Source: Phytohabitans rumicis
GTDB lineage: Bacteria > Actinomycetota > Actinomycetes > Mycobacteriales > Micromonosporaceae
DNA: 64,000 nucleotides
NCBI RefSeq assembly: GCF_011764445.1
Contig: NZ_BLPG01000001.1
Location: 7,581,001 to 7,645,000, forward strand
Reading direction: 5' to 3'
This document shows positions 9,578 to 64,000 of this stretch, one piece after another (position 1 is the stretch's first letter; every line of letters begins with the position of its first letter). The position numbers and the translations under genes are program-made. The notes below the pieces were generated by a model. The model saw only the letters and a list, made by a program, of their open reading frames with translations. It did not search any database and had not been told where the DNA came from.

Positions 9578-10267
9578 CTAGGCGTCGCGTGTGCGTAGTA
9601 GTAGGCCGCCGGCCACGAGCGCGCCGGCGGCCCACCCGGCGGTGACGCCAAGACTGCTCGTCGGTGCGATCTGTTGGAGCAGACGGCGCCAGTGCGCGTC
9701 GCCGATCACCTGGGAGAGGACGGGGAGCAGGTAGAGCAGGCCGAGGATGACCCCGATGCTGGTCGCGGAGTCCCGCACGATGGCGGCGATGCCGAGACTG
9801 AGCAGGGCGATCAGGGTCAGGTAGAGGATCGACCCGACGGCGGCGCGCAGGGTTGGCCCGCCGGCTGAGGTGAAGCTCCCGCCGGGCAGGATGAGCCGCC
9901 CCGCCAGCAGCGACCCCAGCACCGCGATGGTGCCGGCCGCGGCCACGACGCCGATGAGAGTGATTGCCTTGGCGGCGAAGACGGTGACCCGACGCGGCAT
10001 CGCCGTCAGTGTCGTGCGGATCATGCCGGTGCTGTACTCGCCGCTGATGACCTGCACGGCCAGGATGGCGGCCGGCGCTTGGCCAAGCACCACGCCGATG
10101 AGGCTGAGCTTGGTCATGTCGCCGCCGCAGCTAGCGGACGTGCATGTCACCACCGAGGTCGCCCCGGCGCTGAGGGCCACCGTCGCCGCGATCATGCCGA
10201 GCAGCAGCCATCGTGGGCTGGCGACGGTCCGCAGCTTCGTCCATTCCGCGTGCAGGGCCGTTCTCAT
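9578..10267 (-). CDS. ABC-2 type exporter permease
   Basis: A 229-residue membrane protein starting at ATG 10267 (MRTALHAEWTKLRTVASPRWLL, the typical opening of actinobacterial ABC-2 permeases). The frame is open further upstream, but the ATGA overlap with the preceding permease fixes this start. About six hydrophobic segments are visible, including LLLGMIAATVALSAGA and AAAGTIAVLGSLLAG. It is the last gene of an ATPase-permease-permease operon and probably pairs with the larger permease to form the channel. Substrate unknown. Exporters next to two-component systems often give resistance to cell-envelope antibiotics. Confidence 0.85.
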   Translation of the reverse strand: MRTALHAEWTKLRTVASPRWLLLGMIAATVALSAGATSVVTCTSASCGGDMTKLSLIGVVLGQAPAAILAVQVISGEYSTGMIRTTLTAMPRRVTVFAAKAITLIGVVAAAGTIAVLGSLLAGRLILPGGSFTSAGGPTLRAAVGSILYLTLIALLSLGIAAIVRDSATSIGVILGLLYLLPVLSQVIGDAHWRRLLQQIAPTSSLGVTAGWAAGALVAGGLLLRTRDA

Positions 10268-37172: not shown

Positions 37173-37251
37173 CTCGGCGAACTTGATCGCGACGAGAATG
37201 TACGCGGCCTATACCCATGTCCGGCCGCGGGTGGTCTGCCACGATCGGGGC

Positions 37252-40200: not shown

Positions 40201-40332
40201 ACGCCTGGCCTGCTCAACGGTTTGGCCGGCATCGGGTACGGGCTGCTCCGCGCCGGTTTTGCGGAGCAGGTGCCGTCCGTGCTCCTTTTCGGGACCGTCC
40301 AGGTAGGAATCGGCAAAAGAAGCAGTCAATGA
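37252..40332 (+). CDS. lanM: Type II lanthipeptide synthetase LanM
   Basis: 1026 residues from GTG 37252, a normal LanM length. The N-terminal two thirds are the dehydratase domain, with kinase-like residues known from CylM: the Lys in VIYKPR, then VDIHRENLV and VVDVETVL. The C-terminal third is a LanC-like cyclase with its zinc ligands: Cys in WCAGQAG (39946) and Cys-His in LCHGELG (40057-40062). By family, it phosphorylates Ser/Thr, eliminates phosphate to Dha/Dhb, and adds Cys thiols to make (methyl)lanthionines. A candidate precursor begins 26 bp downstream. No LanT transporter or protease is seen near it. Confidence 0.93.
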   Translation: MTGSSTTPAATPPAAVEGWWAAALALGERLAAGVPELASADPDVDARIEAWRGTCDGAGAGQFTLRLADAGIDESGLRALLAEPASHLGARASRPSWVRVVEGALGISPLPVVDAEARGSDVFAGVVHPFVEEIRRQLAAEPLSDLVDAATLNDAYAARLGRRLAAVAAPVLVAELHAAKGRGELSGTEGGERFADFVRQLAAPGRLAALLARYPVLGRLLGQHAQQAVDSRRELLARFVADRPVVVDGLLAGRDPGRLVAVHDMGADAHRGGRSVAALVFSDGRRVIYKPRAVAVHVRFAALVAWLNGALAGTALRTPAVIARDGYGWLEFVAGEPVPDLAAADRFYRRQGALLALLHLVGAVDIHRENLVAAGDQPVVVDVETVLHPMTPVPWLTSDPAADRLASSVHRTGVLPMMLVGDHGRADMSALGGDGAAPAGVAFWDEPGTDRMRLGRRSTPLASRGNRVRLDGVERDPVDHEPDLLAGFRAAYNAIMRDRVRVGALLRHFADVETRVVVRPTQLYRTLLDRSNHPAVLRDALDRDRVLDALWAVAATSQPGSTQLFRHELAELWSGDVPLFTTTPAEIGVRTADGTLVDGLFERSGLAGALGQLDAMSDADRRDQEWIISATLATRRPPAGHRGGPGAEGRATAVDPARLLAAARGIADQLVALAARRHGEVNWLGLELVEERQWLALPMGAGLATGYTGVALFLAELWALTGVERYASVARAAVRRVPPLLAALSGSDETVRAVGCGGMTGFGGIAYALARLAGRLDDASLCDGTRSAIGLAERCVVPDAPLGVFTGVAGCLAAMTAVYEELDLPEAAHTARRCATLLAERVDAPSTSTGFAAGDAGIGWALVRHARSGAAVPDAAHLDVLGSRLLRGAATTGDEYGWCAGQAGVHAARHAAGIADDPAVLDGYATRPVLRDLSLCHGELGILEALAVRRESRAAWIIRRRAGQVCDVISRAGAGCGTPGGVPTPGLLNGLAGIGYGLLRAGFAEQVPSVLLFGTVQVGIGKRSSQ

Positions 40333-49600: not shown

Positions 49601-49954
49601 CTTGTGCAGGTCGATGGGGGTCCGCAGGTCGGTGGTGCGGACCTCGTGCAGCTCCCGCTCCCGCTCGGCGGGCGGCAGCGCGGTCAGGTCGACCACGGGG
49701 AGCGGGACCGGCGCGATCGGGTCGACCAGCATGCCGGCGGTGTCGCCGACCGTGTCGTAGCGCGAGCGCAGGATCGAGTGCCGGGCGGCCACCTGGGTCA
49801 GGGCGGCGCCGAGCGCGCCGGCGTCCAGCGGCCCGCGGATCCGCAGCGCGGCGGACAGTAGCTGGTCGACCGCCGCGCCCGGCCGGAGCTGGTCGAGGAA
49901 CCACAGCTGCTCCTGGGCGACCGACAGCGGACGCCATTCACGATCGGTGGTCAC
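43613..49954 (-). CDS. Two-module NRPS, C-A-T-C-A-T
   Basis: 2113 residues from GTG 49954, overlapping the TauD stop. C1 has HHIAFDG. A1 has YTSGSTGRPKG and pocket residues read by eye as D-A-W-Q-C-A-T-I-D (uncertain; partly Gln-like). T1 attachment Ser is residue 987 in GGHSL. C2 has HHVAFDAW, with Ala for the last Gly of the motif. A2 has FDVAMD, with pocket D-V-D-E-M-V-N-V-T; the acidic residues fit an amine side chain such as diaminopropionate. T2 Ser is residue 2046. There is no thioesterase. The acidic tail LSDAELDALLTKTV may dock onto a partner NRPS. It probably acts before the enzyme at 53564. Confidence 0.93.
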   Translation of the reverse strand: MTTDREWRPLSVAQEQLWFLDQLRPGAAVDQLLSAALRIRGPLDAGALGAALTQVAARHSILRSRYDTVGDTAGMLVDPIAPVPLPVVDLTALPPAERERELHEVRTTDLRTPIDLHKQAPWRATLVRLAPDDAVLLVIVHHIAFDGLSWGVLARELEALYAAALGRPAPALAPLLTQYHQVARRERERAGGGSAAAALAYWQERLAGLGPLELPADRLRPAQWVPDGASVPVTVPAELAMRLRDLGRAGRATPFMVHLAVFQLLLSRYSGQTDIGVGVSMNTRTGAETARLIGLFLDTVVIRSTVDETGGFPDLVAEVRQRVLEALRHGAPFSEVMSRLSVTRDATRNPVFQAGFDWNTVRREPFRLAGLEVEVCPPVFAGSSFDLSLHLAEHPDGTVVGQFVYPTSLFTQARVERMAASYLRLLRSIAEAPARPVAELDLVPAADRRCFTRWNSTDVARPRQSLPALFLARAQADPDAVAVRAEEQELTYAELADRVRVLAGHLRRHGVTAETPVGVAMHRGLHLPVAVLAVLAAGGTYVPLPPEYPADRLAYMVADSGAALVLTDSTVDDLLDQPDADPGDLPDIDDRQSAYIVYTSGSTGRPKGVVVTHEGIRNRVLWSVQRYGMTAADRLLHKTTIGFDAAVWELLAPLVSGGSVVMAPPDGHRDPAVMTAAIVRHRVTLLQVVPSVLRLLVNEPGLARCTSLRLLCSAGEALPAALARRLVDLLDIEVVNTYGPTECSIDATAATFQPDEAAESVPIGGPLPNIELYVVDRADQLVPVGVPGELRLGGVGLARGYLGRTDLTAARFTPNPYADRPGQRWYHTGDLVRWREDGELEFLGRVDQQIKVNGVRVEPAEIECVLGEHPEITAAVVIGRHTEAGETHLVAYVVPGVPDDLHDHLADRLPAAMVPAQILPVERLPLTPNGKVDRAALLAIGTSTAEAAAGPAPRTPVERDIATAMAEVLGADEIAVTDNFFARGGHSLAAIRLVMRLRRTFGIEMTVGDLFARPTVQGVAEWIGDQLAPAAAIGVTPVPRDRPLPLSFAQQRMWFLDQLTPGTAEYLIPLAVRVHGALDPDRLRRATAAVVRRHEVLRTRYLDRDGEPVQVVDPPGSLAFEQVDLTGRPDAETAGLELLDRASGRPFDLAAEHPLRVTLVRLGPDHHLLLMALHHVAFDAWSMGIFLADLDAAYVADAAPWAGPALQYADFAAWQREQADHSGQLAYWRDRLAGLAPLELLTDRSRGAQRDPSGALLALDVPESLARSVLSLAGDRAATPFMVLLAAFQVLLARYARRSDVAIGTPVAGRTRPETEDLLGLFTNTLVIQCDLAGDPRFVDLLEQVRAVTLDAFAHQDVPFEHVVDAVQPERDLSRNPLFQVMFDVQHLDRFPATLGGAAIEPIRSGPLVSKFDLTLTVQQRAGGRLRCVFEYATELFDRSTVERLAGQYLRLLDSIVAEPRSRLGELELLAGDERHRLLREWPRSGADVIDRLDPAAEHHLCVPQLFEAQVRRTPEALAAVFGTEQVTYAQLDERVNRFARRLRRLGVAAETTVAVCLERSLDAVVVLLGVLKAGGVYTPVDPTQPAERRDYMIADSGARVVVTTGEFAATFDGPYTVVAVDDEAGAGDEAGVDLPTVTDPRNLAYLIYTSGSTGRPKAVMIEHRSYAHHCRVIADAYRITPRDRVVLLSALTFDVAMDQIAATLLAGATIVVGDPVFWAPADLPARLAEHQVTIMEITPAYYREMLEYDVSGLDRLALMNVGSDVVTASDAQRWAATGLPGRFLCNYGPTEATVTCFLHPVDASSPERSEPATAVLPIGRPVAGTRAYVLDPDLRPVPIGVPGELCLGGVRLARGYHGRPELTARQFVPDPLSEEPGARLYRTGDLVRYRPDGAVEFLGRIDQQVKIRGLRMEIGEIEAALARHPSVQAVAVVAAEVTPGDKGLAAYLVLREGPGPNPVELREHLRGLLPENMIPSWWTFLADLPKTSSQKVDRKALPAPRPGTGRALRAPETAAEEIVADIWREVLGLSEVSVDDDFFAVGGHSLLATRVLARLRRAFAVEFPLRQLFESRTVAQLAEAVTDAVEADVAALSDAELDALLTKTVPDTRNDE

Positions 49955-50931
49955 GGTCGCCTCCCGTCATCGCCACTGTCCACAGTGGCGGGGTCCCATG
50001 CTTCGGCCATCGCGACCGCAATCTTCCGGTGACCGGTGAACGGCTCCCGGCCATGCGCGGCCAGCATGTTGTCGACGACGAGGATGTCCTCGGGCTGCCA
50101 GTCGAACCGGCGCTGGGCGCCACGGTAGGCCGCCCGCAGATGCGCCACGACGTCGTCGGGGATCGGTGCGCCGTCACCGTAGTACGTGTTCGTCGGCAGG
50201 TCCGCCTCGTCGAGCATCTCCCGCAGGCCGGCGCACACGTCCGGGGCGAGCGTCGTGACATGGAAGAACGTCACGTGGTTGAACCACACCGTATCGCCGG
50301 TGACCGGATGCTGGTGCACCGCCCGCCGGCAGGCCCGCGTGCGCAGGTCCCGCGCGCCGACCCACTCGGCCTCCATGCCGTTGCGCGTGCAGTACGCGAC
50401 CACCTCGGACCGGTCGTCCGTGCCGAACACCTGCTGCCACGCCACCCCGTAGCCGCTGCTGAAGTTGCGGACCACCATCCAGCCGCGGACGGCGAACTCC
50501 TCGCGGACGGCCGGGTCGATGGCCCGGTACACCTCCCGGGTGTCCGCCAGCGGCGTCGCGCCCAGCGTGTCCGGCGGGCGCAGACAGTAGAAGAACAGCG
50601 TCAGCGGCCAGCGTGCCTGGTAGGAGTTCTCGTTGTGGAGAAAGATCTCCTCGTTCGGCGGGTAGTCGGTGGAGGTGTAGACGTTGCCCGCGATGGTGCT
50701 GCGCGGCGACGAACGCTCGGTGTAGGGCAGCGGCGAGCCGGCGATCGCCCGTACGGCGCTGTCGAAGCCGTCCACCCCGCCGACGCCGTACCCGCGCAAC
50801 AGCACCGCGCCATGCTCGCGAAGGTGGCGGCGCAGGGACGGCACGTCGAGTGTGGAGCCACTGGAGATCGCCGTCCCGGGGGTATCCGGCGTCATCACGA
50901 CAGGTAAGCCGAGCGTGGCTGGGATCCGCAT
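49951..50931 (-). CDS. TauD/TfdA-family Fe(II)/2-oxoglutarate oxygenase (SyrP-like)
   Basis: 326 residues from ATG 50931; ATG 50895 is an alternative, and neither has a strong ribosome-binding site. The iron ligands HxD/E are in [13 protein letters not shown]. The distal His and the 2-oxoglutarate Arg are in [22 protein letters not shown]. SyrP-like members hydroxylate the beta carbon of an amino acid, often while it is bound to an NRPS carrier. It is translationally coupled to the two-module NRPS by a GTGA overlap, so the substrate is probably a residue loaded there. Confidence 0.88.
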
Positions 50932-51425: not shown

Positions 51426-52412
51426 TCAGGTGAAGTCGTGGATGGCTGTCCCCACACCGAGTGCCACTGCCCGGCGGCGGACCAGCTCGGCTACGGCCAG
51501 GTCGAGGATGCCGAGCCCGAATGGGGAGAACAGGGTCAGGCCGCGCTCGTCCCGGCGGTGCGGCTCGGCGGCGAGCAGCAGACCGCCAAGGGTGGCGGCG
51601 ACGAAGTCGGTGTGTCCCGCCTGCTGCGCGGCCAGGTGCACGGAGGTCGACGCCTGGCACACATGTTCGACGTCGTCGACGACGTTGGTGCTGGACAGCA
51701 CCGTCGTCGCGGCGATGTCCCGCAGGGACACGTGCAGCACCAGGGTGCCGGGCCGAAACTGCTCGCCGTCAAGGTGGGGCGTGGTCGCCGTGGTCGCCAG
51801 CGAGACCAGGCGGTGCGCGCCGAGCGCCGTCCCGATGTCGTCGGCGACATCGAATTTCAGGCCGTCGTAGCGCTGGGTGCAGTCGGCGGCGAACGCCTTG
51901 GCCCGGGTGGGATCGGTGTCGAACAGGGTAACGGTGTCCACAGTGGGTAGTGCGTGGCGGACGAAGCGCAGCACCTCGCCGTTGATGACCCCGCAGCCCA
52001 CGAGGGTGATGCCGGTGTCCGGAGTCGGCGAGCGGATCGTGGCGGCGGCCAGCGCGGCGCTCGCCCCGGTGCGGCGGGCCGAGATCGCGGCCGCGTCCAG
52101 CAGTGTCTCCGGCACGCCGGTGCGCACCGAGTTCAGCACGATCAACCCGCTCGCCCGGGGCTGGCCGGCGGCGATGTTGCCCGGAAACGACGAGATCCAC
52201 TTGACGCCGGCGACGGGGTTGTCGCCACCCAGGTACGCGGGTTTCGCGATGATGCGGTTGCGCAGGTCGGGCGGGAACCGGAGAAAGACGGAGTCGGGGA
52301 GCGCCGTCTGCCCGCGCTCATGCTTGACGTACGCGTCGCGTACCGCCGCCAGCACCTCCTCGTCCGCCCCGGCGAGCAGTTGGCGCACGTGCTCGGCACC
52401 CAGGATCAGCAT
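51426..52412 (-). CDS. sbnB: SbnB-like N-(amino-carboxyethyl)-glutamate dehydrogenase
   Basis: 328 residues from ATG 52412, which lies inside the 3' end of the sbnA-like gene (7-bp overlap). It belongs to the ornithine cyclodeaminase/mu-crystallin family: MLILGAEHVRQLLAG, KPAYLGGDNPVAGVKWISSF, a Rossmann motif TGITLVGCGVINGEVLRFV, and LHVSLRDIA. SbnB oxidatively cleaves N-(1-amino-1-carboxy-2-ethyl)-glutamate with NAD to give L-2,3-diaminopropionate and 2-oxoglutarate. Its coupling to an SbnA-like synthase makes this reaction likely rather than ornithine cyclisation. Confidence 0.88.
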   Translation of the reverse strand: MLILGAEHVRQLLAGADEEVLAAVRDAYVKHERGQTALPDSVFLRFPPDLRNRIIAKPAYLGGDNPVAGVKWISSFPGNIAAGQPRASGLIVLNSVRTGVPETLLDAAAISARRTGASAALAAATIRSPTPDTGITLVGCGVINGEVLRFVRHALPTVDTVTLFDTDPTRAKAFAADCTQRYDGLKFDVADDIGTALGAHRLVSLATTATTPHLDGEQFRPGTLVLHVSLRDIAATTVLSSTNVVDDVEHVCQASTSVHLAAQQAGHTDFVAATLGGLLLAAEPHRRDERGLTLFSPFGLGILDLAVAELVRRRAVALGVGTAIHDFT

Positions 52413-53430
52413 GATGCAACCTCCACGTCGGCTTGTTTCCACAGGTGCGAGATGTCACCGAAGTGCGCGTTGACCCAGGCATCGCTGTAGATCGTGTCCA
52501 GGTAGCGCTCGCCCCGGTCGGGCAGGATGAGTACGCAGGTGGCGCCCGGCGGGATCCGATCACGCAACTGGTCCAGGGCGGCGACCACCGCGCCGGACGA
52601 ACCGCCGGCCAGGATCGCCTCCCGCCGGGCGAGCTGGCGGCAGCCCACGACGCACTCGGTGTCGTCGACGTGCACCACCTCGTCGGCCAGGTCGTCGCGG
52701 TAGAGCTTCGGGCGCAGGGCGGCGCCGTGGCCGGGGATGAGTCGGGGCCCGGCCGGCTGGCCGAAGATGACGCTGCCCACCGCGTCCACCGCGACGATCC
52801 GGGTGGGCAGGTCGTGGGCGCGAATGTAATCGGCGCACCCGCGCAGCGTGCCGCAGGAGCTGGCGGCGCAGAACAGGAGATCGACCGGCCCGGGGCGGCC
52901 TCCGCGATCTCCCGCATGGTGGTGTGGTGCGCGCGGGCGTTGAGCGGGTTCGAGTACTGGTCGGTCCAGAACCCGTTCGGGATCGTCGCGGCCAGCTCCC
53001 GCACGCGGGCGATGCGCGCCGGCAGGTACTCGCCGGTGGCCGGATCGGTCTGGGTCACCACCTCGACCTCGGCACCGAGCGCGCGCATGATGGCGATGTT
53101 CTGGGCGTTGCTGCGCGGGTCGACCACGCAGATGAACTTGATGCCGTAGTACGCGCACATGTGTGCCAGCCCGATGCCCAAGTTGCCCGAACTTGACTCG
53201 ATCAGCACCGAGCGCCCCGGCACGATGCGTCCACTGCGGATCCCGTCGCGGACCATCTGCAGGGCCACCCGGTCTTTGATGCTGCCGCCGGGGTTGTCCC
53301 CCTCCAGCTTGGCGAACGTCCGAAATGGACTTTCCGCGCTGATGCGGGTCAGCTCAATGAGCGGCGTACCGCCGATAGCACCGGTGAGTCCTGTGACGAA
53401 TGTCTGTCCGGAGTCGGCCACTGGCGTCAT
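52406..53430 (-). pseudogene. sbnA: SbnA-like PLP-dependent ACEGA synthase (one frameshift as sequenced)
   Basis: The start is ATG 53430 (MTPVADSGQTFVTGLTGAIG). Fold-type II PLP enzyme of the cysteine synthase family: GGTPLIELTRI, the PLP lysine in NPGGSIKDRVALQ, the loop ESSSGNLGIGLA, and the C-terminal phosphate-binding GGSSGAVVAAL. The frame breaks at the plus-strand GGGG run 52892-52895 and continues in another frame to 52406. One added base gives EIAEAAPGPVDLLFC and a 341-residue protein. SbnA condenses O-phosphoserine with glutamate. With SbnB it makes 2,3-diaminopropionate, probably for the NRPS. It is divergent from the large NRPS at 53564. Confidence 0.85.
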
Positions 53431-53563: not shown

Positions 53564-56500
53564 ATGACCGAGACCCTAGACCGGGTGGCACTTCGGGCCG
53601 AGCTGGTGCGCCGCCGGCTGCGGGGCGAGGCCACGCCGGCGCCCGACGACGGGATCGCGCCCACCGTCCGGCCCGACACCGTCCCGCTTTCCTACGCCCA
53701 GCACCGGCTCTGGCTGCTCGACCAGATGCGACCGGGTGGCACGGAATACCTGATGACGACGGCGCTGCGGCTGCGCGGCAGCTTGGACACGGCCGCGTTG
53801 ACGACCGCGATCGAAGGGATCGTCGCCCGCCACGAGGTGCTGCGCACCCGCTACGAGCTGGTGGCCGGCGAGCCGGTGCAGGTTGTCGACGAGCCGGGGC
53901 CGGTGCCCGTCGCCGTCGTCGACCTGCGCGATCTGACCCCGCCGGAGCGCGAGCGGCGCATCGCCGCCCTCGCCACGTCCGAGCGGAGCCCGGTGGACCT
54001 GGCGACCGGCCCCGTCCTGCGGGCCACCCTGGTCCGGCTGACCGGTGAGGAGCACGCGTTGCTGCTGACCGTGCACCACGTCGCCACCGACGGCTGGTCG
54101 GAGGGCGTCATCATCGCCGAGCTGGCCAGCCGGTACCGCGCCGCGGTCACCGGCCGGCCGGCGCAGGAGCCTCCGTTGCCGATCCAGTACGCCGACCTGG
54201 CGGTGTGGCAGCGGTCGGCGCGGTCCCGGGCCGGGCTGGAGCGCCAGCTTGCCTACTGGCGCGAGCGGCTGGCCGGGCTGAGCCCGCTGGAGCTGCCGAC
54301 CGACCACCCCCGGCCACCGGTACGCGACTCCGCCGGTGCGCTGCACTCCTTCGAGCTCGCCACGCCGACCGCCGAAGCGCTGCGCCGGCTCACCTTGTCG
54401 CGCGGCGTGACGCCGTATCAGGCGCTGCTGGCCGGCTTCGTGGTCCTGCTGTACCGCTACACCGGTCAGACCGACGTCGCGGTCGGCACCCCGATCGCCG
54501 GCCGCGACCGGCCCGAGGTGCAGGACATGGTGGGCCTGCTGCTCAACACCGTGGTGCTGCGCACCGACGTGTCCGGCAGTCCATCCTTTGTGGACCTTCT
54601 GGACCGGGTCCGGAACACCACGCTGGACGCGCACGACCACCGCGAGCTGCCCTTCGAGTGGCTGGTCGAAAAACTTGTCCCGGGGCGGGACCCGTCCCGC
54701 AATCCGCTGTTCTCCACGATGTTCGTGTGGGACGACGCGGTGACGACCACCACCGAGACCGCCGGACTGCACATCGAGCGCATACCGGTCGGCGAGAGCA
54801 GCGCCAAGTTCGACCTGACCGTGGCCGTGGCCGAGCGCCCCGATGGGTCGGTGCGGGTCGGCTTCAACTACGCGACCTCGCTGTTCGACCAGGAAACCAT
54901 CGAGCGCATGGCACTGCACTACGGCCAGCTGCTGGCCGAGGCGGCCGCCGCGCCGCACGCACCCGTCGATCGGCTGGCGCTGCTCGGCCCGGCCGAGCGG
55001 CGCCAGCTGACGGTCGACTGGAACGACACCGAGACGAGCTATCCGGCCGCGACCCTGACCGAACTGCTGGACGCGCAGGCGACCCGCACGCCGGACGCGG
55101 TCGCCCTGCGCTTCGGCGCCGAGGAGCTGTCGTACCGCCGGTTGCACTCCGAGGCCGACGTGCTCGCGCGGCGCCTGCGCCAGGCCGGAGTGGGGCCGGA
55201 GTCCATCGTGGCGGTCTGCCTGCCGCGCGGTCTCGACCTGATGCGGGCCCTGGTGGCGATCCTGAAGGCCGGCGCCGCCTACCTGCCGCTGGAGCCGGAC
55301 CTGCCGGCGCAGCGCCGCGCCTTCATGGTGCGCGACTCCGGCGCCCACCTGGTGATCACCGAAGACTTCATGTCCACCGTGGACTATGCGTCTGGCGGCG
55401 GCGATCCGGTACCGTCCGGCGGGATCACGCCCGAGCACGCCGCCTACCTCATCTACACGTCCGGGTCGACCGGCCAGCCCAAGGGCGCCCTGATCGAGCA
55501 CGCCGCGATCGTCAACCGCCTGCTGTGGATGCAGGACGCCTACCGGCTCGACGCCTCGGACCGCGTGCTGCAGAAGACACCGATCGGGTTCGACGTGTCG
55601 GTGTGGGAGCTGTTCTGGCCGCTGGTCACCGGCGCGACGCTGGTCCTGGCCCGACCAGGTGGACACCGCGACCCGGCCTACCTGGCCGGCGTGATCCGGA
55701 ACGAGAGGATCACCACCGTCCACTTCGTACCCTCGATGCTGCGCGCCTTCCTGGCCGAGCCCGTCGGGCCGCTGCCGTCCCTGCGGCGGATGATCTGTAG
55801 CGGCGAGGCGCTGCCGGCCGAGCTGGCGGACCGGGCGCACGAGCAGGTCGGATGCGAGCTGCACAACCTGTACGGTCCGACCGAGACCGCCGTCGACGTC
55901 ACCGCGGTGCGGTGCGAGCCCGGCGAGCCGGTCACCATCGGCCGTCCGATCGCCAACACCACCGCCTACATCGTCGACCCCAGCCTGGAGCCCACGCCGC
56001 TCGGTGTGCCCGGCGAACTGCTGATCGGTGGCGTGCAACTCGCCCGGGGCTACCTCGGCCGGGCCGCGCTGACCGCCGAACGGTTCGTCCCCGACCCGTT
56101 CGCCACCGCCCCGGGCCGGCGCCTCTACCGCACCGGTGACCTGGCGCGCTACCGCCCCGACGGCGGCATCGAGTACCTCGGCCGGATCGACCACCAGGTG
56201 AAGATCCGTGGTCAGCGCATCGAGTTCGGCGAGGTCGAGGCCGTGCTGCACGAGGCGCCCGGCGTCACCGCGGCGGCGGTTGCCGTCCACGACGAGCAGC
56301 TGGTCGGCTACCTGGTCGGCCCGGACACCGTCGACCTCGTACGCGCGTACCTGCTGGAGCGCCTGCCGGACGCGATGGTCCCGGCGCGCTGGACGATCCT
56401 GCCCACCCTGCCGCTGACCGCCAGCGGCAAGGTGGACCGCCGGGCCCTGCCGGCACCCGACCGGGTACGCGACGGAGCCGATGACAGCTACGTCGCCCCG

Positions 56501-59500
56501 CGCGACGAGATCGAGAAGCGGATCGCCGACGCGTTCGGCGTGGCGCTCGGCATCGACACCGTCGGCGTCACGGACAGCTTCTTCCTGCTCGGCGGCGACT
56601 CGATGCGGGCGATCCGCATGGTGGGGCTGCTGCGCGCGGCCGGCCTCGGCGTGTCGGTCCAGGACCTCTTCACCCACCAGAGCGTGGCCGACCTCAAGGG
56701 CGTCGTCGTCCCGGCCGAGCCGGCCGAGGAAGCGGAGGCGACCGTCGACCGGTTCGCGCTGGTCAGCGAGGCGGACCGGCGCCTCCTGCCGGACGGGCTC
56801 GCCGACGCCTATCCGATCAGCCAGAACCAGGCGGGCATGCTCTTCGAGATGCTGTCCGGCGGCGACCGGCCGGTCTACCGCAACGTGTCGTGCTACCGGA
56901 TCAGCGACCCGCTGCCCTTCTCGCTGGACACGCTGCGCGAAGCCGGCCGGCTGCTCACCGACCGGCACGAGATCCTGCGCACGTCGTTCGACCTGTCCAG
57001 CTACTCCGAGCTGATGCAACTGGTCCACGCGTCGGTCGACCTGCCGATCGGCTACGACGACCTGCGCGGGCTGCCGGCCGACGAGCAGGAGGAGACGGTC
57101 CGCGCGTACCTGCGGGCCGAGCGCACCAAGCCCTTCGACATCACCACCGCCCCGCTGCTGCGCTATCACGTACACCAGCTCAGCGACTCCGACTGGCGAC
57201 TGACCCACTCGGAGAGCCACGCGATCCTCGACGGCTGGAGCCACACCTCCACGCTGGCCATGTTCGTGTCGCTGTACCGGACGCTGCGCCGGGGCGAGCG
57301 GCCGGCGCTGCCACCACCGCCGACGGTACGGTTCGCCGACTTCATCGCCCGCGAACGCGAGTCCCTCGCCTCGGCCGCGGACCGCGCCTTCTGGGCGGAA
57401 ACCGTCACCGGGTCGGACCGGATCGAGCTCCCACCGGAGTGGGGCACCGAGTCGGACGCCCCGGCGAACATCGTCGAAGTGCCGTGGACCGACCTGCGCC
57501 CCGGACTGCGCCGGCTCTCCGCCGCCGCCGGCACCTCACTGAAGAGCGTGCTGCACGCCGCGCACCTGAAGGTGCTGAGCATCGTCACCGGCCGGCAGGC
57601 GTTCCACAGCGGCCTGCTGTGCAACGGCCGGCCCGAGCGGCTGCGCGGCGACGAGGTGTTCGGCATGTTCCTCAACACCGTGCCGTTCGCCGCCGACACC
57701 TCCCCGCGTACGTGGCGCGCCCTTGTCGAGGCCGTCTTCGCCGGCGAGGCCCGCCTCTGGCCGCACCGCCGCTACCCGCTGCCGTCCATGCAACGGGAGT
57801 GGGGCAACGGCACGCCGCTGCTGCGGGTGGGCTTCTCGTACCTGGACTTCCACGTCCTCGACGGCCGCGCCGAGTCGGTCGAGATGATCGACGACTTCAG
57901 CCCCGGCAGCATCGGGCTCGACGTGTGGACGTTCCCCGGGATCCTGCGGCTGGGTGCCCGGCCCGCGCAGATCGACCGGCCGTACCTCGAACTGCTGGCC
58001 CGCACCTACCGGCACGTGCTGGAGGCGATGGCCGCCGACCCGGACGGCGACACGGACATCGGCCTGAGCGAGGCCGACCGGGCCTGGGCGGTCGAGGCAC
58101 ACCAGCCGGTCGAGCGGTTCGCGGCGGCGCCGTTCATCCACGAGCTCGTCGCCCGGCGCGCGACCGCCGCACCCACCGCCGTGGCGGTGCGGCACGGCGA
58201 CGCCACGCTCACCTACGCGGAGCTGGACAACCGGTCCGACCGCCTCGCCGCGCGCCTGGGCGAGCTCGGCGTCCGCCCGGACACGGTCGTCGGCATCCAC
58301 CTGCACCGCGGGATCGACATCATCGTCGCGATGCAGGCCATCCTCAAGGCCGGCGGGGCGTACCTGCCCCTCGATCCCGCGTACCCCGCCGAGCGGATCG
58401 GCGACATGATCCGCGACGCGGCGCCCGTGGTCGTGCTGACCGACGCCGAACTGGCCCCGAGACTGCCGTGCACGACCGCGACGGTGCTGGTCGCCGACCT
58501 CGCGAACGCGCGGCCCCGGGTGGCGTACCCGCCGGCGGTGCCGCTCACCGGGGACAACCTCGCCTACGTCATCTACACGTCCGGCTCCACCGGGCGGCCC
58601 AAGGGCGTCGCGGTCACCCACCGCAGCGTGCTCAACTTCTGCCACGCCCAGCGGCGGGTCCTGGACACGCGGGCCGGGGACCAGGTGCTCCAGTTCGCCT
58701 CGCCCAGCTTCGACGCCTCCGTCTGGGAGATCCTCCTGGCCCTCGCCAGCGGCGCCACGCTGGTGCTGCCGCCGCCGGACACCGACCCCGGCGACCTGCG
58801 CCGCCACGCGGCCGAGCTGACCCACATGACCCTGCCACCGCCGCTGCTGGACCGCCTCGACCCGGCCGACTTCCCGCGCCTGAAGGTGCTGACCACCGGA
58901 GGCGAGGCGTGCACGGCCGACCAGGCGGCGCGGTGGGCCGGCCACGTGCGCGTCCTGCACGGCTACGGACCCACGGAGACCACCGTGATCGCCACCATCG
59001 CCGACCTGCGGGCCACGGACACGGCACCGCCGCCGATCGGGCTCCCGCTGCACAACGTGCGCCCCTACGTCGTCGACGACGAGCTGCGCCTGCTGCCCGC
59101 CGGCGTACGCGGGGAACTCGTGATCGGCGGCGCGGGCGTGGTGCGCGGATACCTGAACCGGCCGGAGCTCACCGCCGAGCGGTTCGTGCCGGACCCGTAC
59201 GCGTCCCGGCCGGGCCAGCGCATGTACCGCACCGGCGACGTGGTCTCCCGGGACCCCGACGGCACCCTGCACTTCCACGGTCGCCGCGACCACCAGGTCA
59301 AGGTCCGCGGATTCCGCATCGAGCTCGGCGAGATCGAGCACGCGCTCGCCGCCCACCCGGCCGTGGCCGCCGCGGTGGTCGCCGTGCACCGGGCCGGCAC
59401 GCCGGACGCCGCGCTCGTCGCCTACACCCGCCCCGCGAACGGGACCGCGGTGTCCGCGGCCGCATTGCGCGACTACGTGCGTGAGCGGTTGCCGCAGCAC

Positions 59501-60706
59501 CTCGTCCCGCACCACTACCTGTCCGTGGACGACTTCCAGTACACGCGCAACGGCAAGGTCGACCGGGCCGCCCTTCCGGCGCCGGACGGCTCGCGGCCGG
59601 TGACCGACGTCGAGTACGTCGCGCCGCGCTCGGACATCGAACGGCACATCGCCACCGCCTGGAGCGAGGCGCTGGGCATCGAGCGGATCGGGGTGCACGA
59701 CGACTTCTTCGAGCTCGGCGGCTACTCGCTGGCGATGATGCGGCTGACCGCGACGCTGCGCAGCCGGCACGGCTACGAGCTGACGTTCGGCTCGTTCGTC
59801 GAACACCGCACCGTCGCCGGGCTGGCCGCGACACTCCAGGACCCGGCGGCGGCGAACCGCGCGATGATGTGGCTGCGGAGCGAGGGTGACGGCCGGCCTC
59901 CGCTGTTCTGTGTGCACCCCGGTGGCGGCAGCGCGCACTGGTACCTGCGCCTGGCTCCGCACCTGCACCCGGACCAGCCGGTGGCGGCGTTCGAGTGGCC
60001 GGGCCCGCATCCAAACGGGACCCCGACCACGGCCGAGATGGCCGAGCGGTACGACAACGAACTGCGCCAGGCCCAGCCGCACGGACCGTACCGGCTGTTC
60101 AGCTGGTGCGGCGGCAGCGGCATCGCCAGCGAGATCGCCCACCGGCTGGTCGCGGACGGGCACGACGTCACGCTGATCCTGCTCGACCCGGGCCTGGACA
60201 TCCACAGCCGCACCGACGCCTGGCGCGAGCTGGGCCTGATCCGCCGCCTCGAGTACCTGCTCGAAGAGGTGAGCGCCGGCGGCGACGAGGCGGACACGCC
60301 GGAACGCCGCCGCGAGATCCTCGACCTGCTCGAGCACATCGTCGACGACGTCAACGAGGAGACCGGCATCACGCTGCCCGAGCGCGGCGTCGGGGACTCG
60401 TGGCCACGGGCGGTCCGGATCTGGCGCGAGGTCATGGAGGTGGACGTCGAGTACCGGCACCGTCCCTGGCCGGGGCGGCTGGAGCTCATCGTGAGCGACG
60501 AGCTCGCCAGCGGCCAGCACGAGGTGACGTCCGGCCAGAGCTACCCGGACTACCTGGCCCGCTGGAACGAGCTCTGCACCGGTGGGGTGCGGGTGCACCG
60601 CGTACCGGGCGACCACTTCAGCGTCATCAAGCCGCCGCTGGTCGGCGAGCTTGCCCGCGTCATCACCGACGTACTAGACGCCGCGCCCGCCGGGCCCGGC
60701 CAGTGA
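53564..60706 (+). CDS. Two-module NRPS with terminal Cys-thioesterase, C-A(Ser)-T-C-A-T-TE
   Basis: 2380 residues from ATG 53564, with AGGAGG upstream. The basic N-terminal helix (RVALRAELVRRRL) may dock to the other NRPS. C1 has HHVATDG. A1 pocket reads D-V-W-H-I-S-L-V-D, the serine code. T1 Ser is residue 1013. C2 is atypical, beginning YPISQNQAGMLFEML, with SHAILDGWS (first His of HHxxxDG is Ser; catalytic His 1219 kept). A2 pocket reads D-A-W-T-T-G-G-V-I, a hydrophobic type with no clear match. T2 Ser is residue 2055. The TE has FSWCGGSG, placing Cys 2182 where Ser is normal. It should add the last two residues and release, perhaps cyclise, the product. Confidence 0.93.
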   Translation: MTETLDRVALRAELVRRRLRGEATPAPDDGIAPTVRPDTVPLSYAQHRLWLLDQMRPGGTEYLMTTALRLRGSLDTAALTTAIEGIVARHEVLRTRYELVAGEPVQVVDEPGPVPVAVVDLRDLTPPERERRIAALATSERSPVDLATGPVLRATLVRLTGEEHALLLTVHHVATDGWSEGVIIAELASRYRAAVTGRPAQEPPLPIQYADLAVWQRSARSRAGLERQLAYWRERLAGLSPLELPTDHPRPPVRDSAGALHSFELATPTAEALRRLTLSRGVTPYQALLAGFVVLLYRYTGQTDVAVGTPIAGRDRPEVQDMVGLLLNTVVLRTDVSGSPSFVDLLDRVRNTTLDAHDHRELPFEWLVEKLVPGRDPSRNPLFSTMFVWDDAVTTTTETAGLHIERIPVGESSAKFDLTVAVAERPDGSVRVGFNYATSLFDQETIERMALHYGQLLAEAAAAPHAPVDRLALLGPAERRQLTVDWNDTETSYPAATLTELLDAQATRTPDAVALRFGAEELSYRRLHSEADVLARRLRQAGVGPESIVAVCLPRGLDLMRALVAILKAGAAYLPLEPDLPAQRRAFMVRDSGAHLVITEDFMSTVDYASGGGDPVPSGGITPEHAAYLIYTSGSTGQPKGALIEHAAIVNRLLWMQDAYRLDASDRVLQKTPIGFDVSVWELFWPLVTGATLVLARPGGHRDPAYLAGVIRNERITTVHFVPSMLRAFLAEPVGPLPSLRRMICSGEALPAELADRAHEQVGCELHNLYGPTETAVDVTAVRCEPGEPVTIGRPIANTTAYIVDPSLEPTPLGVPGELLIGGVQLARGYLGRAALTAERFVPDPFATAPGRRLYRTGDLARYRPDGGIEYLGRIDHQVKIRGQRIEFGEVEAVLHEAPGVTAAAVAVHDEQLVGYLVGPDTVDLVRAYLLERLPDAMVPARWTILPTLPLTASGKVDRRALPAPDRVRDGADDSYVAPRDEIEKRIADAFGVALGIDTVGVTDSFFLLGGDSMRAIRMVGLLRAAGLGVSVQDLFTHQSVADLKGVVVPAEPAEEAEATVDRFALVSEADRRLLPDGLADAYPISQNQAGMLFEMLSGGDRPVYRNVSCYRISDPLPFSLDTLREAGRLLTDRHEILRTSFDLSSYSELMQLVHASVDLPIGYDDLRGLPADEQEETVRAYLRAERTKPFDITTAPLLRYHVHQLSDSDWRLTHSESHAILDGWSHTSTLAMFVSLYRTLRRGERPALPPPPTVRFADFIARERESLASAADRAFWAETVTGSDRIELPPEWGTESDAPANIVEVPWTDLRPGLRRLSAAAGTSLKSVLHAAHLKVLSIVTGRQAFHSGLLCNGRPERLRGDEVFGMFLNTVPFAADTSPRTWRALVEAVFAGEARLWPHRRYPLPSMQREWGNGTPLLRVGFSYLDFHVLDGRAESVEMIDDFSPGSIGLDVWTFPGILRLGARPAQIDRPYLELLARTYRHVLEAMAADPDGDTDIGLSEADRAWAVEAHQPVERFAAAPFIHELVARRATAAPTAVAVRHGDATLTYAELDNRSDRLAARLGELGVRPDTVVGIHLHRGIDIIVAMQAILKAGGAYLPLDPAYPAERIGDMIRDAAPVVVLTDAELAPRLPCTTATVLVADLANARPRVAYPPAVPLTGDNLAYVIYTSGSTGRPKGVAVTHRSVLNFCHAQRRVLDTRAGDQVLQFASPSFDASVWEILLALASGATLVLPPPDTDPGDLRRHAAELTHMTLPPPLLDRLDPADFPRLKVLTTGGEACTADQAARWAGHVRVLHGYGPTETTVIATIADLRATDTAPPPIGLPLHNVRPYVVDDELRLLPAGVRGELVIGGAGVVRGYLNRPELTAERFVPDPYASRPGQRMYRTGDVVSRDPDGTLHFHGRRDHQVKVRGFRIELGEIEHALAAHPAVAAAVVAVHRAGTPDAALVAYTRPANGTAVSAAALRDYVRERLPQHLVPHHYLSVDDFQYTRNGKVDRAALPAPDGSRPVTDVEYVAPRSDIERHIATAWSEALGIERIGVHDDFFELGGYSLAMMRLTATLRSRHGYELTFGSFVEHRTVAGLAATLQDPAAANRAMMWLRSEGDGRPPLFCVHPGGGSAHWYLRLAPHLHPDQPVAAFEWPGPHPNGTPTTAEMAERYDNELRQAQPHGPYRLFSWCGGSGIASEIAHRLVADGHDVTLILLDPGLDIHSRTDAWRELGLIRRLEYLLEEVSAGGDEADTPERRREILDLLEHIVDDVNEETGITLPERGVGDSWPRAVRIWREVMEVDVEYRHRPWPGRLELIVSDELASGQHEVTSGQSYPDYLARWNELCTGGVRVHRVPGDHFSVIKPPLVGELARVITDVLDAAPAGPGQ

Positions 60707-60719: not shown

Positions 60720-61609
60720 ATGAGTACACACGCGAGCCCGACCCCGCTCCAGGTAGCGATCGTGGGCACGGGCAACATCGGAACCGACCTGCTGTTGAAG
60801 GTCGAGGCGTCCCCCTGCTGGAGTGCGTCCTGTTCGCCGGACGCCGCGCCGGATCACCCGGGATCGAGCTGGCCGACAGGCACGGTGTGCCCACGAGCGT
60901 GGACGGCATCGACGCGGTCCTCGCCCGCGCGGAACACATCGACCTGGTCTTCGACGCGACCTCGGCGGAGGACGCCACCCGCCACTGGTCGATCGTCGAA
61001 CCCACCGGGCTGCCGTTCGTCGACCTCACGCCGGCGCACCTCGGCAAGTTCTGCGTGCCGGCCATCAACCTGGACAGCTGCCTCGACGAGCAGTACCTCA
61101 GCATGGTCACCTGCGCGGGACAGGCGGCCGTGCCGATGGCCTACTGCATGGCGGAGGCCGCCGAGGGGATCGACTACCTGGAGCTCGCCACGGCCACCGC
61201 CTCGGCCACCGTCGGCCCCGGGACGCGGGCCAACCTCGACGAGTTCGTGCACACCACCGAGCAGGCGATCCTCGAGTTCTCCGGGGTACGCCGCGCCAAG
61301 ACCGTGGTGATCATCAATCCCGCTGATCCCGGCATCGTCATGCGCAACACCATCGCGGTGCCGCCCACCGAACGCATCGACCTGGACGTCCTGCGCGCGT
61401 CCGTCGACACGATGGAGAAGCTGATCAAGTCGTACGTCCCCGGCTATCGCGTCGCCGTCCCGCCGGTGGCCACCGGCGACCGCATCATGCTCATGGCCGA
61501 GGTCGAGGGCCGCGGAGACTGGTTCCCGCGCTACGCCGGGAACCTCGACATCATCACGTGCGCCGCCATCGCGGTTGCTGAGGCGCGTGCGGAACGGAGG
61601 CGGTCATGA
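60720..61609 (+). pseudogene. mhpF: Acylating acetaldehyde dehydrogenase, MhpF/DmpF-like (one frameshift as sequenced)
   Basis: The start is ATG 60720, with AGGAAGGA upstream and 13 bp after the NRPS stop. The NAD-binding motif is VAIVGTGNIGTDLLLKV. The frame breaks at the CCCCC run 60811-60815; one added C gives ASPLLECVLFAGRRAGSPG and a ~296-residue protein. The catalytic Cys is in MVTCAGQAAVPMAY. DmpF-family enzymes interconvert acetyl-CoA and acetaldehyde and channel the aldehyde to the partner aldolase. Here it probably runs in the reducing direction, like SanN of the nikkomycin pathway. It overlaps the aldolase gene by 4 bp. Confidence 0.87.
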
Positions 61610-62643
61610 ACGGCGCAACCCGACGCGGACTGAGCATCTGCGACACGACCCTGCGCGACGGCAACCACGCCGTCGCCCACCAACTCGGCCGCGCGGACAT
61701 CAGCGCCTACGCCCGGGCGGCCGAGGCCGCCGGCGTGGACGTCGTCGAGGTCGGCCACGGCAACGGACTCGGCGCCTCGTCCATCCAGGTCGGCATGGCC
61801 GCGCTCAGCGACGCCGACATGCTGCGGACGGCCAAGGCCGAGCTGCGTACGGCCCGGCTCGGCGTGCTGTCCATCCCCGGGTTCGCCAGCGTCGAGCGCG
61901 ACCTCAAGCCCGCATTGGACTACGGCGTGGACGAGGTGCGGGTCGGCGCGCACTGCACCGAGGCGGACGTCACCCGGCAGCAGGTCACGATGCTGCGGGC
62001 CATGGGCGTCACCGTCAAGGGCATGCTGTTGATGAGCCACATGGTCTCCGCGGCAAAACTTGTGGAACAGGCACGGATCATGCAGAGCTACGGCGCCGAG
62101 GCGGTCGTGCTGATGGACTCCGCCGGCGCGTACACGCCGGAGAAGGTCCGCGAAAAGGTCGGCGAACTCGTCGAGAAACTCGACATCGAGGTCGGTTTCC
62201 ACGCGCACAACAACCTTGGCATGTCGGTCGTCAACAGCATGGCGGCGGTCCAGGCCGGAGCCACCATTGTGGACGTCACCGCGCGCGGCTTCGGCGCCGG
62301 CGCGGGCAACGCGCCGATCGAGCTCGTCGCGGCGAACCTGCACGTGGAGCAGATCGAGACCCGCATCCAGCTCTTCGGGGCGCTCGACGCGGCCGACGTG
62401 GCACAGGAGCACTTCGTCAAACACGTACCCACCAACGACAGCGTCACCATCGCCAGCGGGATCGCCGGCGTGTTCTCCGGTTTCGCCGCGCCGGTGCGGC
62501 GGGCGAGCGCCCGCTTCGGCGTCGACCCCCGCAAGATCCTGCTGGAGCTCGGCAACCGCCGGGTGGTGGCGGGTCAGGAAGACACCATCATCGAGGTCGC
62601 CATGTCGCTCGCCGCCGAGCAGGAGGCGTTGAGCCTCGTCTGA
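61606..62643 (+). CDS. mhpE: 4-hydroxy-2-oxovalerate aldolase, MhpE/DmpG-like
   Basis: 345 residues from ATG 61606, coupled to the dehydrogenase. The HMGL-like barrel opens ICDTTLRDGNHAVAHQ (catalytic Arg, metal-binding Asp). The metal-binding HxH is in EVGFHAHNNLGMSVVNSMAA. A C-terminal DmpG communication domain follows. It catalyses the reversible aldol reaction of pyruvate (or another 2-oxo acid) with an aldehyde. In a biosynthetic operon the condensation direction is likely, giving a 4-hydroxy-2-oxo acid, as SanM does in nikkomycin biosynthesis. Confidence 0.92.
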   Translation: MNGATRRGLSICDTTLRDGNHAVAHQLGRADISAYARAAEAAGVDVVEVGHGNGLGASSIQVGMAALSDADMLRTAKAELRTARLGVLSIPGFASVERDLKPALDYGVDEVRVGAHCTEADVTRQQVTMLRAMGVTVKGMLLMSHMVSAAKLVEQARIMQSYGAEAVVLMDSAGAYTPEKVREKVGELVEKLDIEVGFHAHNNLGMSVVNSMAAVQAGATIVDVTARGFGAGAGNAPIELVAANLHVEQIETRIQLFGALDAADVAQEHFVKHVPTNDSVTIASGIAGVFSGFAAPVRRASARFGVDPRKILLELGNRRVVAGQEDTIIEVAMSLAAEQEALSLV

Positions 62644-62694
62644 GCAGCCGTCAGTTTCGCATCAAGTCGTGCTTCAAGTCGTGTAGGAGGAGCA

Positions 62695-63681
62695 ATGCAA
62701 CGCCATTCCTCGCTCGAGAACGCGGCCGACCTGGCCGCGGTCGCCGCGCTGCTGCAGATCGGCGCGGAGATCGGAGTCGACCAACTGCTGGACTCGGGCG
62801 GCACGTTCAGCGCCGCGGATCTGGCCAAGGTGGCCGACCTCCCGCAGGCCGGCACCGACGACTACCTGGCCGCGCTGGTCGCCGCGGGACTCGTCGTGGA
62901 CACGGAGATCCCGAACAGGTTCCAGGTGGCCGAGGACTACCCGGACTGGCGGTACGCGTCCGGATACGTGTCCTGGAGCCTGAGCGCGAACGGCCCGTTC
63001 CTCGACCACGCGCGGGAGTTCCTGGTCGACCGCGACGCGGCCGCCCGGGCCCATCAGCGGAACGGACGCCGGGTGGCGGTCAGCTCACGGTGGATCGGCG
63101 CGCGGGCGTTCTATCCACCGATCGTCGACCGGGTCGCCGCGGCCGGTGCCCGCCACGTGGCAGACCTCGGCGCCGGCGCCGGCGGGTTGCTCATCAAGCT
63201 CCTGGGGCAGGACCCGGCGCGTACCGGCGTGGCGCTCGACTGCAGCGGCGCCGCGTGTGCCGCGGCGCGGGAGGCCGCCGTCGCCGCGGGCGTGGACGGC
63301 CGGCTCCAGGTCGTCGAGCGCACGGTCGAGTCCCTTGTGGACGATCAGGGACCGGTCGAGGGCGCGAACGTCGTGCTCGCGTGCTTCGTCATGCACGACA
63401 TCGTGGCGGACGCCGCGGTGGCCAAGGGCGTCCTGGGCGCCTGCCGCGACGCGCTCGCGCCCGGCGGGTTCATGGCGGTCGCGGACGCGGTCTCGTACGC
63501 GTCCCAGCCCGCCGAGCGGAAGTTCAGCGCGCTGTTCACCTACCTGCACGCCAGCTTCATGAGCGTGACCCTCCCGACCGAGGGACAGTGGCTGGACACG
63601 TTCCAGGCCGCGGGCTTCTCGAAGACCGAGTACGTGCCGCTCGGCACCCCCGGCGCCCGGCTCTTCGTGGCGGTCAAATAA
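62695..63681 (+). CDS. SAM-dependent methyltransferase (O-/C-methyltransferase fold)
   Basis: 328 residues from ATG 62695, with AGGAGGAG upstream. An N-terminal helical dimerisation/winged-helix part (ENAADLAAVAALLQIGAEIG, FSAADLAKVADL) precedes a Rossmann domain with motif I VADLGAGAGGLLIKLL. FVMHDIVADAAVAKGVLG and LAPGGFMAVADAV follow. The architecture resembles small-molecule methyltransferases, including the 2-oxo acid C-methyltransferases such as MppJ and SgvM. Its place between an aldolase and a hydratase that handle 2-oxo acids makes 2-oxo acid C3-methylation plausible. O-methylation cannot be excluded. Confidence 0.87.
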   Translation: MQRHSSLENAADLAAVAALLQIGAEIGVDQLLDSGGTFSAADLAKVADLPQAGTDDYLAALVAAGLVVDTEIPNRFQVAEDYPDWRYASGYVSWSLSANGPFLDHAREFLVDRDAAARAHQRNGRRVAVSSRWIGARAFYPPIVDRVAAAGARHVADLGAGAGGLLIKLLGQDPARTGVALDCSGAACAAAREAAVAAGVDGRLQVVERTVESLVDDQGPVEGANVVLACFVMHDIVADAAVAKGVLGACRDALAPGGFMAVADAVSYASQPAERKFSALFTYLHASFMSVTLPTEGQWLDTFQAAGFSKTEYVPLGTPGARLFVAVK

Positions 63682-64000
63682 TGACCACCGCGCTGTCCCT
63701 GCACCGCGAGCTCGCGTGGGAACTCTGGACGGCGGCACGGACACTTCAGGCCGTGCCGCCGGTCTCTACCCGGCATCCGGACCTCGACCTGGCCGACGCG
63801 TACGCCATCCAGAGCGAGGTCCGCGAGATGGACCTGGCGTCCGGTGCGGTCCTGGCCGGACTCAAGATCGGGGCGACGAGCGAGGCGATCCAGTCGATGT
63901 TCGGCATCGACCATCCCGACTTCGGCTACCTGACCGACAGAATGGTGCTCGCCGACGGTGCGGACCTCGACCTGAGCCGGTTCATCGCGCCGAAGGTCGA
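63681..64000 (+). CDS. mhpD: 2-keto-4-pentenoate hydratase, MhpD-like (3' end outside window)
   Basis: ATG 63681 overlaps the methyltransferase stop by one base (TAATG), and the frame is open to the window end (106 residues visible). It begins MTTALSLHRELAWELWTAAR, followed by LADAYAIQSEVREMDLASGA, LAGLKIGATSEAIQSMFGID, and a FIAPKVE stretch that approaches the metal-binding glutamates of the FAH/MhpD family. The enzyme interconverts 2-hydroxypenta-2,4-dienoate and 4-hydroxy-2-oxovalerate. With the aldolase and dehydrogenase it completes the MhpDEF trio, here probably run in the synthetic direction. Confidence 0.85.
   Translation, partial: MTTALSLHRELAWELWTAARTLQAVPPVSTRHPDLDLADAYAIQSEVREMDLASGAVLAGLKIGATSEAIQSMFGIDHPDFGYLTDRMVLADGADLDLSRFIAPKV

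Follow-up and report, generated by a model that had tools for sequence, protein, structure and literature searches.

What is a set of genes with the family names of a meta-cleavage pathway doing directly behind a nonribosomal peptide synthetase (NRPS) gene? This question is raised by the right-hand end of a 64,000-nucleotide stretch of the Phytohabitans rumicis genome (contig NZ_BLPG01000001.1, positions 7,581,001 to 7,645,000; called the window here, with positions counted from its first letter), where an NRPS gene is followed on the same strand by mhpF, mhpE, a methyltransferase gene and mhpD. We assign a probability of about 0.62 to the reading that these four genes constitute a cyclomarin-type amino-acid supply cassette, which would make 2-amino-3,5-dimethylhex-4-enoate (ADH) from isobutyryl-CoA and pyruvate. 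At the level of sequence, the argument is built on the families of the gene products, the conservation of the cassette, its kinship to cyclomarin-like clusters, signatures in the pockets of two of the enzymes, and a link to the last adenylation (A) domain of the NRPS.

The locus and its genes

From the NRPS gene through mhpD the genes are separated by gaps of 13 and 51 nt and joined by two small overlaps.

53564 to 60706, + strand: NRPS, C-A(Ser)-T-C-A(X)-T-TE by Pfam domains, A-domain codes DVWHISLVDK and DAWTTGGVIK
58136 to 59575, + strand: last adenylation domain (X) of this NRPS, residues 1525-2004 by NCBIfam matches and its code; proposed consumer of the cassette product
60720 to 61609, + strand: mhpF, for an acylating aldehyde dehydrogenase; its frame is broken near 60,806-60,812, with the downstream frame open from 60812 to 61609
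61606 to 62643, + strand: mhpE, class II pyruvate aldolase with a biosynthetic pocket signature
62695 to 63681, + strand: C3-methyltransferase for 2-oxo acids, SgvM type, with His234 and His285 as predicted metal ligands
63681 to 64460 (the window ends at 64000), + strand: mhpD, kin of 2-oxopent-4-enoate hydratase, with an expected dehydratase role

An initial annotation of the window had named MhpF, MhpE, a methyltransferase and MhpD, in that order behind the NRPS. Family scans bear out both the content and the order, but mhpF is frame-broken, which had gone unnoticed; all four adjacent genes of the cassette are present, mhpF in this broken form. The downstream frame of mhpF matches NF006157 (E 9e-92) and TIGR03215 (over cut-off), and MhpE matches TIGR03217 (4-hydroxy-2-oxovalerate aldolase, over cut-off) and contains a DmpG_comm domain. 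For MhpD, whose gene overruns the window by 460 nt and was completed from the downstream locus, the best family is TIGR03220 at 233.6 bits, below the cut-off of 408.8, and there is no Pfam match at 0.001. The methyltransferase resembles SgvM, the 2-oxo-acid C3-methyltransferase of viridogrisein (8ftr, 8ftv), with 142 of 316 residues identical (45%). It shares both metal-binding histidines of SgvM, which are kept in all 39 methyltransferase sequences aligned, SgvM included; by these two residues and by kinship it belongs to the SgvM type. Given this type, the C3 methylation of a keto acid that had been proposed at the outset is probably right.

A conserved unit distinct from the catabolic copy

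The distribution of the methyltransferase provides a measure of how far the four genes travel together. The protein was matched in 8 of 250 genomes of the family and in 4 of 394 of the class (the genome of the window being counted in both), in 19 of 392 genomes of a genus taken as Streptomyces, in 12 of 160 of a genus taken as Micromonospora (at 13 places) and in 0 of 5 genomes of one further genus, tentatively Salinispora; a search of named genomes gave 4 loci. These sets overlap, leaving 41 loci besides the window, all of which were fetched. Within 6 kb of the methyltransferase, all three partner genes (mhpF, mhpE and mhpD) are found at 27 loci and none at 14; a partial set is found at 0 of the 41. 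The 27 represent 24 distinct loci, G1085, G795 and G755 being identical to L039, L037 and L040. These three, together with G837 (which differs from L038 at 12 of 371 aligned methyltransferase positions), were left out of the trees and signature tables, and all four were restored for the aldolase count given below. Two gene orders occur, mhpF-mhpE-methyltransferase-mhpD (type A, which includes the window) and methyltransferase-mhpD-mhpF-mhpE (type B). G957 is mixed: at this one locus (L081) a type A-like MhpD and methyltransferase are combined with a type B-like MhpF and MhpE.

This all-or-none pattern applies from the methyltransferase side and breaks down from the aldolase side: two bare mhpF-mhpE pairs, one in G090 and one at another site in G037, have neither the methyltransferase nor MhpD. 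These bare pairs lie at about 9971-11763 of L149, where the aldolase has the biosynthetic signature described below and an NRPS lies within about 8 kb, and at about 9019-10817 of L150; these are possibly used in the manner of SanN/SanM. In nikkomycin, SanN/SanM represents the use of a dehydrogenase-aldolase pair in biosynthesis. As a precedent for the pair, which the window shares, this example from the initial annotation stands; but to our knowledge nikkomycin has neither an MhpD nor a C3-methyltransferase partner, both of which are present in the window, and cyclomarin is the closer precedent. There are also NRPS clusters (L086, L087, L088 and L089) with a methyltransferase that is sister to the cassette clade and without MhpF, MhpE or MhpD. 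Their neighbouring modules have the code DPYVWAAVI or DPFVWAAII, the two of these methyltransferases that were tabulated have Ile144, and their state could possibly be ancestral or could follow loss of the cassette.

That the cassette is instead a remnant of aromatic or steroid catabolism is suggested by the family names only, and we consider it extremely unlikely. On another contig (C2) the genome has a second MhpD/E/F set, accompanied by KshA-like, reductase-like, FAD-dehydrogenase and hydrolase genes; an extradiol-type dioxygenase (C2:814239-815111; TIGR03213, 326 bits, E 6e-97, below the cut-off of 366) lies about 5 kb away from it. By its gene content this set is a steroid-type catabolic cluster. 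With the catabolic-type set and its dioxygenase located there, and with the window genes following an NRPS and carrying the cassette signature, the catabolic operon reading was dropped. The cassette does not have the extradiol dioxygenase beside MhpD/E/F that marks a meta-cleavage operon: no ring-cleavage gene came up when most genes within about 15 kb downstream were scanned against protein families, and when the whole genome was searched for one extradiol type, the only ring-cleavage type so searched, none lay within about 160 kb on the window contig, where the nearest TIGR03213 match is weak and about 160 kb away. As far as the searches reach, then, the earlier statement that no ring-cleavage genes are visible is upheld. 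The conservation in NRPS clusters, the SgvM-type methyltransferase and the separate catabolic copy also indicate that the enzymes probably run in the biosynthetic, condensing direction, as had been supposed.

Kinship to cyclomarin-like clusters

The cyclomarin cassette, which we take to be cymE-cymH of Salinispora arenicola, presumably consists of homologues of MhpD, MhpE, the methyltransferase and MhpF. In published accounts of cyclomarin, ADH is made by a four-gene cassette from isobutyraldehyde and pyruvate and goes to the last position of the NRPS (PMC8068612); its precursors are elsewhere given as valine and pyruvate (PMC8401383). Four of the clusters related to the window (G060, G111, G639 and G792) resemble cyclomarin clusters and have the type A gene order. 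A Trp_DMAT prenyltransferase gene lies between the NRPS and the cassette in all three that were scanned (G060, G111 and G639). G060 has a single NRPS, 7792 residues long, in which seven carrier motifs and six A-domain codes can be read, and beside it are a PhyH dioxygenase, two P450s and an FkbM-type methyltransferase; the last five codes we take to be Ala, Phe, Val, Leu and X. For the other three clusters, the last two A-domain codes alone are in view.

Gene by gene, the window is 66-87% identical to these four cassettes. The mhpE tree puts the window's group next to them (93/96 and 88/95, not starred), and in the methyltransferase tree they share with the window a starred set of ten sequences whose fork has support of 100/99. 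In both trees the window lies near Micromonospora-type clusters, with the cyclomarin-like four next, rather than with the catabolic copy. In the mhpD tree the group that includes the window is recovered but its nearest neighbour group is not, and the mhpF tree gives no resolved branching near the window. The window thus shares with the cyclomarin cassette the four-gene set, the order of its genes and, as proposed, an unsaturated dimethyl amino acid; it differs in that mhpF is frame-broken and in that its NRPS is a four-module line, ending in Ser-X-TE, on two-module genes. The single heptamodular NRPS and Trp prenyltransferase of a cyclomarin gene cluster are not found here, and no prenyltransferase is present among the genes scanned at the window locus. 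The window cassette is most likely a further example of the cyclomarin-type route, an idea that is already known in kind.

Remodelled pockets in the aldolase and the methyltransferase

The families of the first two enzymes are those of the pairs DmpG-DmpF, BphI-BphJ and HsaF-HsaG, and the window proteins retain aldolase Arg17, Asp18, His21, His200 and His202 (DmpG numbers) and the dehydrogenase Cys. They differ from these pairs in their biosynthetic context and, within the aldolase, by Asp53Asn, Leu89Ser, Tyr291Phe, Ser293Gly and Gly323Ala. Four of these residues, Asn53, Phe291, Gly293 and Ala323, are present in 28 of 28 cassette aldolases (the window and three duplicates counted). A wider comparison took in the 30 aldolase loci, among roughly 95 listed places, for which DNA was available. 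Among them the signature is seen in the 5 from cassettes and in the bare pair of G090 (L110), and the other 24 all have Asp, Tyr, Ser and Gly at 53, 291, 293 and 323. (An MhpF-like gene is nearby at 24 and an MhpD-like gene at 22 of these 24.) Type A aldolases also have Ser at 89 and Ile at 90. The numbering of BphI is presumably offset by one from that of DmpG. In BphI, changing Tyr290 to Phe lifts a stereochemical restriction, and changing Leu89 to Ala admits longer aldehydes (PMC3962088).

The methyltransferase pocket has changed as well. SgvM residues Met144, Phe329 and Thr331 are Ile, Thr and Gly in the window protein, and it is at F329, T331 and M144 that SgvM was engineered to give a wider pocket (PMC10502145). 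In a table of 36 of the 38 family sequences (G658 and G1004 omitted), Ile144 and Gly331 occur together in 24 of 24 cassette-linked methyltransferases, 23 of which have a residue other than Phe at 329. All three changes are found together in 0 of the 12 sequences without a cassette, although G934 and G781 come near.

The proposed route and its starter unit

Which way the reactions run, which acyl-CoA and transaminase take part and what is produced are deduced rather than read from the genes. MhpF would convert an acyl-CoA to its aldehyde, most likely isobutyryl-CoA to isobutyraldehyde, and MhpE would join isobutyraldehyde to pyruvate to give 4-hydroxy-5-methyl-2-oxohexanoate. MhpD would remove water from this compound by way of a dienol, and the SgvM-type methyltransferase would methylate C3 of the dienolate, leaving the double bond at C4. 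A housekeeping branched-chain transaminase would then yield ADH, which the last A domain would load.

The initial annotation had started the same route from acetyl-CoA and ended it at 2-amino-3-methylpent-4-enoate (4,5-dehydroisoleucine). This version has points in its favour: acetaldehyde is the usual substrate of these enzyme families, both the dehydrogenase and the aldolase score over the cut-offs of acetaldehyde families, the last A domain is hydrophobic, and the aldolase residue corresponding to BphI Leu87 (presumably DmpG Leu88) is unchanged. However, cyclomarin uses isobutyraldehyde, and the aldolase and methyltransferase pockets are unlike those of ordinary aldolases and SgvM and match those of cyclomarin-like cassettes. 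We consider the acetyl-CoA route quite unlikely, and it is no longer the first choice. Because both pockets are remodelled, a keto acid larger than the C5 compound of the earlier proposal fits best, with ADH as the leading candidate.

A starter that is neither acetyl-CoA nor isobutyryl-CoA has to be weighed here also. With propionyl-, 2-methylbutyryl- or isovaleryl-CoA the same enzymes would lead to a relative of ADH, and two features of the window would suit such a starter, namely a last A-domain code unlike that of the cyclomarin-like clusters (DAWTTGGVIK as against DAMVLGVVAK or DAMVLGVIAK) and the changes peculiar to the window's mhpF, which include residues 129, 137 and 145 of its downstream frame. 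On the other hand, the window aldolase agrees with those of the four cyclomarin-like cassettes at 33, 33, 34 and 34 of 35 sites, a comparison that discriminates weakly within type A, where the other members agree with it at 31 to 35 sites (type B at 24 or 25, and DmpG at 20). We regard such a starter as rather unlikely.

Several of these observations also weigh against the isobutyryl-CoA route itself. The 35 aldolase sites hardly separate the members of type A, so isobutyraldehyde is not singled out; the type A aldolases are, by these residues, one pocket class, within which the sites do not set the substrate. Of the best-studied sites, BphI Leu87 and Leu89, the first (presumably DmpG Leu88) is unchanged here and the second (presumably DmpG Leu90) has changed only as far as Ile. 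A wider pocket denotes capacity, not a substrate. The label "cyclomarin-like" is based on the architecture of the clusters, and the match of the four enzymes, which the cited accounts of cyclomarin leave unnamed, is presumed. The last A-domain code of the window is not the cyclomarin-like one. Finally, the window mhpF is frame-broken and departs from its relatives at 11 of the 132 positions that are invariant in 14 other type A sequences, one of the 11 being the residue beside the catalytic Cys, which is Gly in the 48 other sequences compared.

A link to the last adenylation domain

The NRPS behind which the cassette lies is thought to be continued, as its first part, by a second gene on the opposite strand.

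43613 to 49954, - strand: two-module NRPS, thought to supply the opening modules of that line, with A-domain codes DAWQCATIDK and DVDENGNVTK

(The code positions were placed by GrsA, and these placements, like the amino acid names attached to the codes, are taken as assumptions.) The resulting four-module line, with the codes DAWQCATID, DVDENGNVT or DVDENSTVT, then Ser, X and TE, is presumably specific for a Gln-like, a basic, a Ser and an X residue before the TE. It is host to cassettes of both types: type A in the window, G1057, G1074a, G1085 (= L039, Micromonospora sp. C31) and G1061, and type B in G167 and G240. (In G001 the Ser and X codes alone are in view, and in G1070, G1098 and G1087 the X code alone.) Within this line the X code of every distinct type A case (6 of 6) is DAWT(T/V)G(A/G)V(V/I), and that of every type B case (5 of 5) is DAFCVGGTF; the five type B clusters are closely related, however, and amount to a single change observed five times over rather than to five separate ones. 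Outside the line, both cassette types accompany other codes. When the second NRPS gene of the window is compared with that of G240, the core of the Ser A domain is 68-74% identical, whereas the core of the last A domain is 43% and 33% identical, the latter being the lowest identity along the gene.

Because cassette lineage and last pocket have changed together, the cassette is tied to the last module, and it probably feeds the last, hydrophobic A domain, the recipient that had been named from the outset. A broader proposal, which falls somewhat short of an even chance, is that two cassette lineages alternate in one four-module NRPS family with supply and pocket exchanged together, type A providing a larger residue (such as ADH) and type B a smaller one, possibly dehydroisoleucine.

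mhpF, broken as sequenced

In mhpF the reading frame changes after the first ~30 codons, in a short C run near 60,806-60,812, and no single open frame covers the gene. All 18 type A relatives (15 distinct) keep an open frame up to and including the nucleotide-binding motif, as does the second mhpF copy of this genome. (The test covers type A, the 9 type B sequences having failed to match the motif pattern used.) A true pseudogene, with the route idle or supplied with aldehyde by the second dehydrogenase or from elsewhere, would be compatible with each of the starter units above, and we rate it as doubtful, at appreciably less than an even chance. Beyond the frame break itself, the 11 invariant positions lost from 132 compare with 3 of 436 in the other three window genes (post hoc Fisher p 1.4e-5), and 13 of 14 peers have lost 0 to 2. 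The remaining peer, G1055, has also lost 11 of 132, but its mhpF frame is open and it is an outlier in all four genes. The dN/dS values give no sign that selection is relaxed on mhpF alone: against G1057 the value is 0.37 for mhpF, below the 0.43 of the intact methyltransferase and above mhpD (0.27) and mhpE (0.13). Frame splits are present in other genes of the assembly as well (SbnA, the mhpD on C2 and the second NRPS), as indel errors would give. The gene may therefore be broken in this genome, with the aldehyde coming from elsewhere or the route idle, or it may be wrongly assembled; what is seen could stem from genuine decay into a pseudogene, from a shift in acyl-CoA preference or from an error of assembly.

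Transamination and neighbouring genes

No branched-chain-type aminotransferase was recognised beside the cassette. Two PF01063 genes lie far off in the genome, one of which could supply the final transamination, with IlvE as the presumed partner. The initial annotation had placed the aminotransferase outside the window, and there is indeed a class III enzyme downstream, but it is of the diaminobutyrate type and probably not the one needed. Encoded on the other strand (EctB-type, over cut-off), it accompanies an ornithine-carbamoyltransferase-like gene, and it has no match in the DNA fetched around the cyclomarin-like four, around the five type B cassettes that share the four-module NRPS line, or in G001. 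It was rejected as the final transaminase and probably belongs to another residue; our guess is that with the carbamoyltransferase it makes a carbamoylated diamino acid, suiting the Gln-like first code. The same downstream strand also has a free A domain, a carrier protein (read by eye) and a LuxR-type regulator.

Upstream, between the two NRPS genes, lie three further genes:

49951 to 50931, - strand: TauD-type dioxygenase, with relatives in nine sibling loci
51426 to 52442, - strand: SbnB-type enzyme (2,3-diaminopropionate supply), TIGR03944 over cut-off
52406 to 53158, - strand: SbnA-type enzyme, C-terminal part (TIGR03945 positions 166-304 only); the N-terminal part is outside this frame

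A LanM-type lanthipeptide synthetase gene (DUF4135 and LanC-like) is located at 37183-40332 (+), about 13 kb upstream of the NRPS gene that starts at 53564. When window numbering is continued downstream, 64724-66886 (-) and 68670-71153 (-) (L006:4724-6886 and 8670-11153) each encode a protein that has the N-terminal domain of lantibiotic dehydratases (PF04738). The two proteins flank the free A domain and carrier protein, the first ends in an apparent frame change, and they may be tRNA-dependent ligases or dehydratases that act on carrier-bound amino acids. Farther on, 74773-79171 (-) (L006:14773-19171) encodes a 3-hydroxyacyl-CoA dehydrogenase, FkbH, an acyl-CoA dehydrogenase, a carrier and a weak KAS III-like protein, a set that by its families resembles the supply of a hydroxymalonyl- or methoxymalonyl-carrier unit. 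A second, frame-broken NRPS region at 79317-88258 (+) also ends in Ser-X-TE (codes DVWHFSLID and DASFLGLVAK). This region has no cassette of its own, because the genome contains no third MhpE at E 1e-40.

Implications

Taken together, the findings suggest that the ADH route is more than an isolated curiosity and forms a portable unit shared by many NRPS clusters of actinomycetes. The signatures in the aldolase and the methyltransferase would make a building block of unstudied peptides predictable, and the natural methyltransferases of these cassettes differ from SgvM at the very sites that engineers chose.

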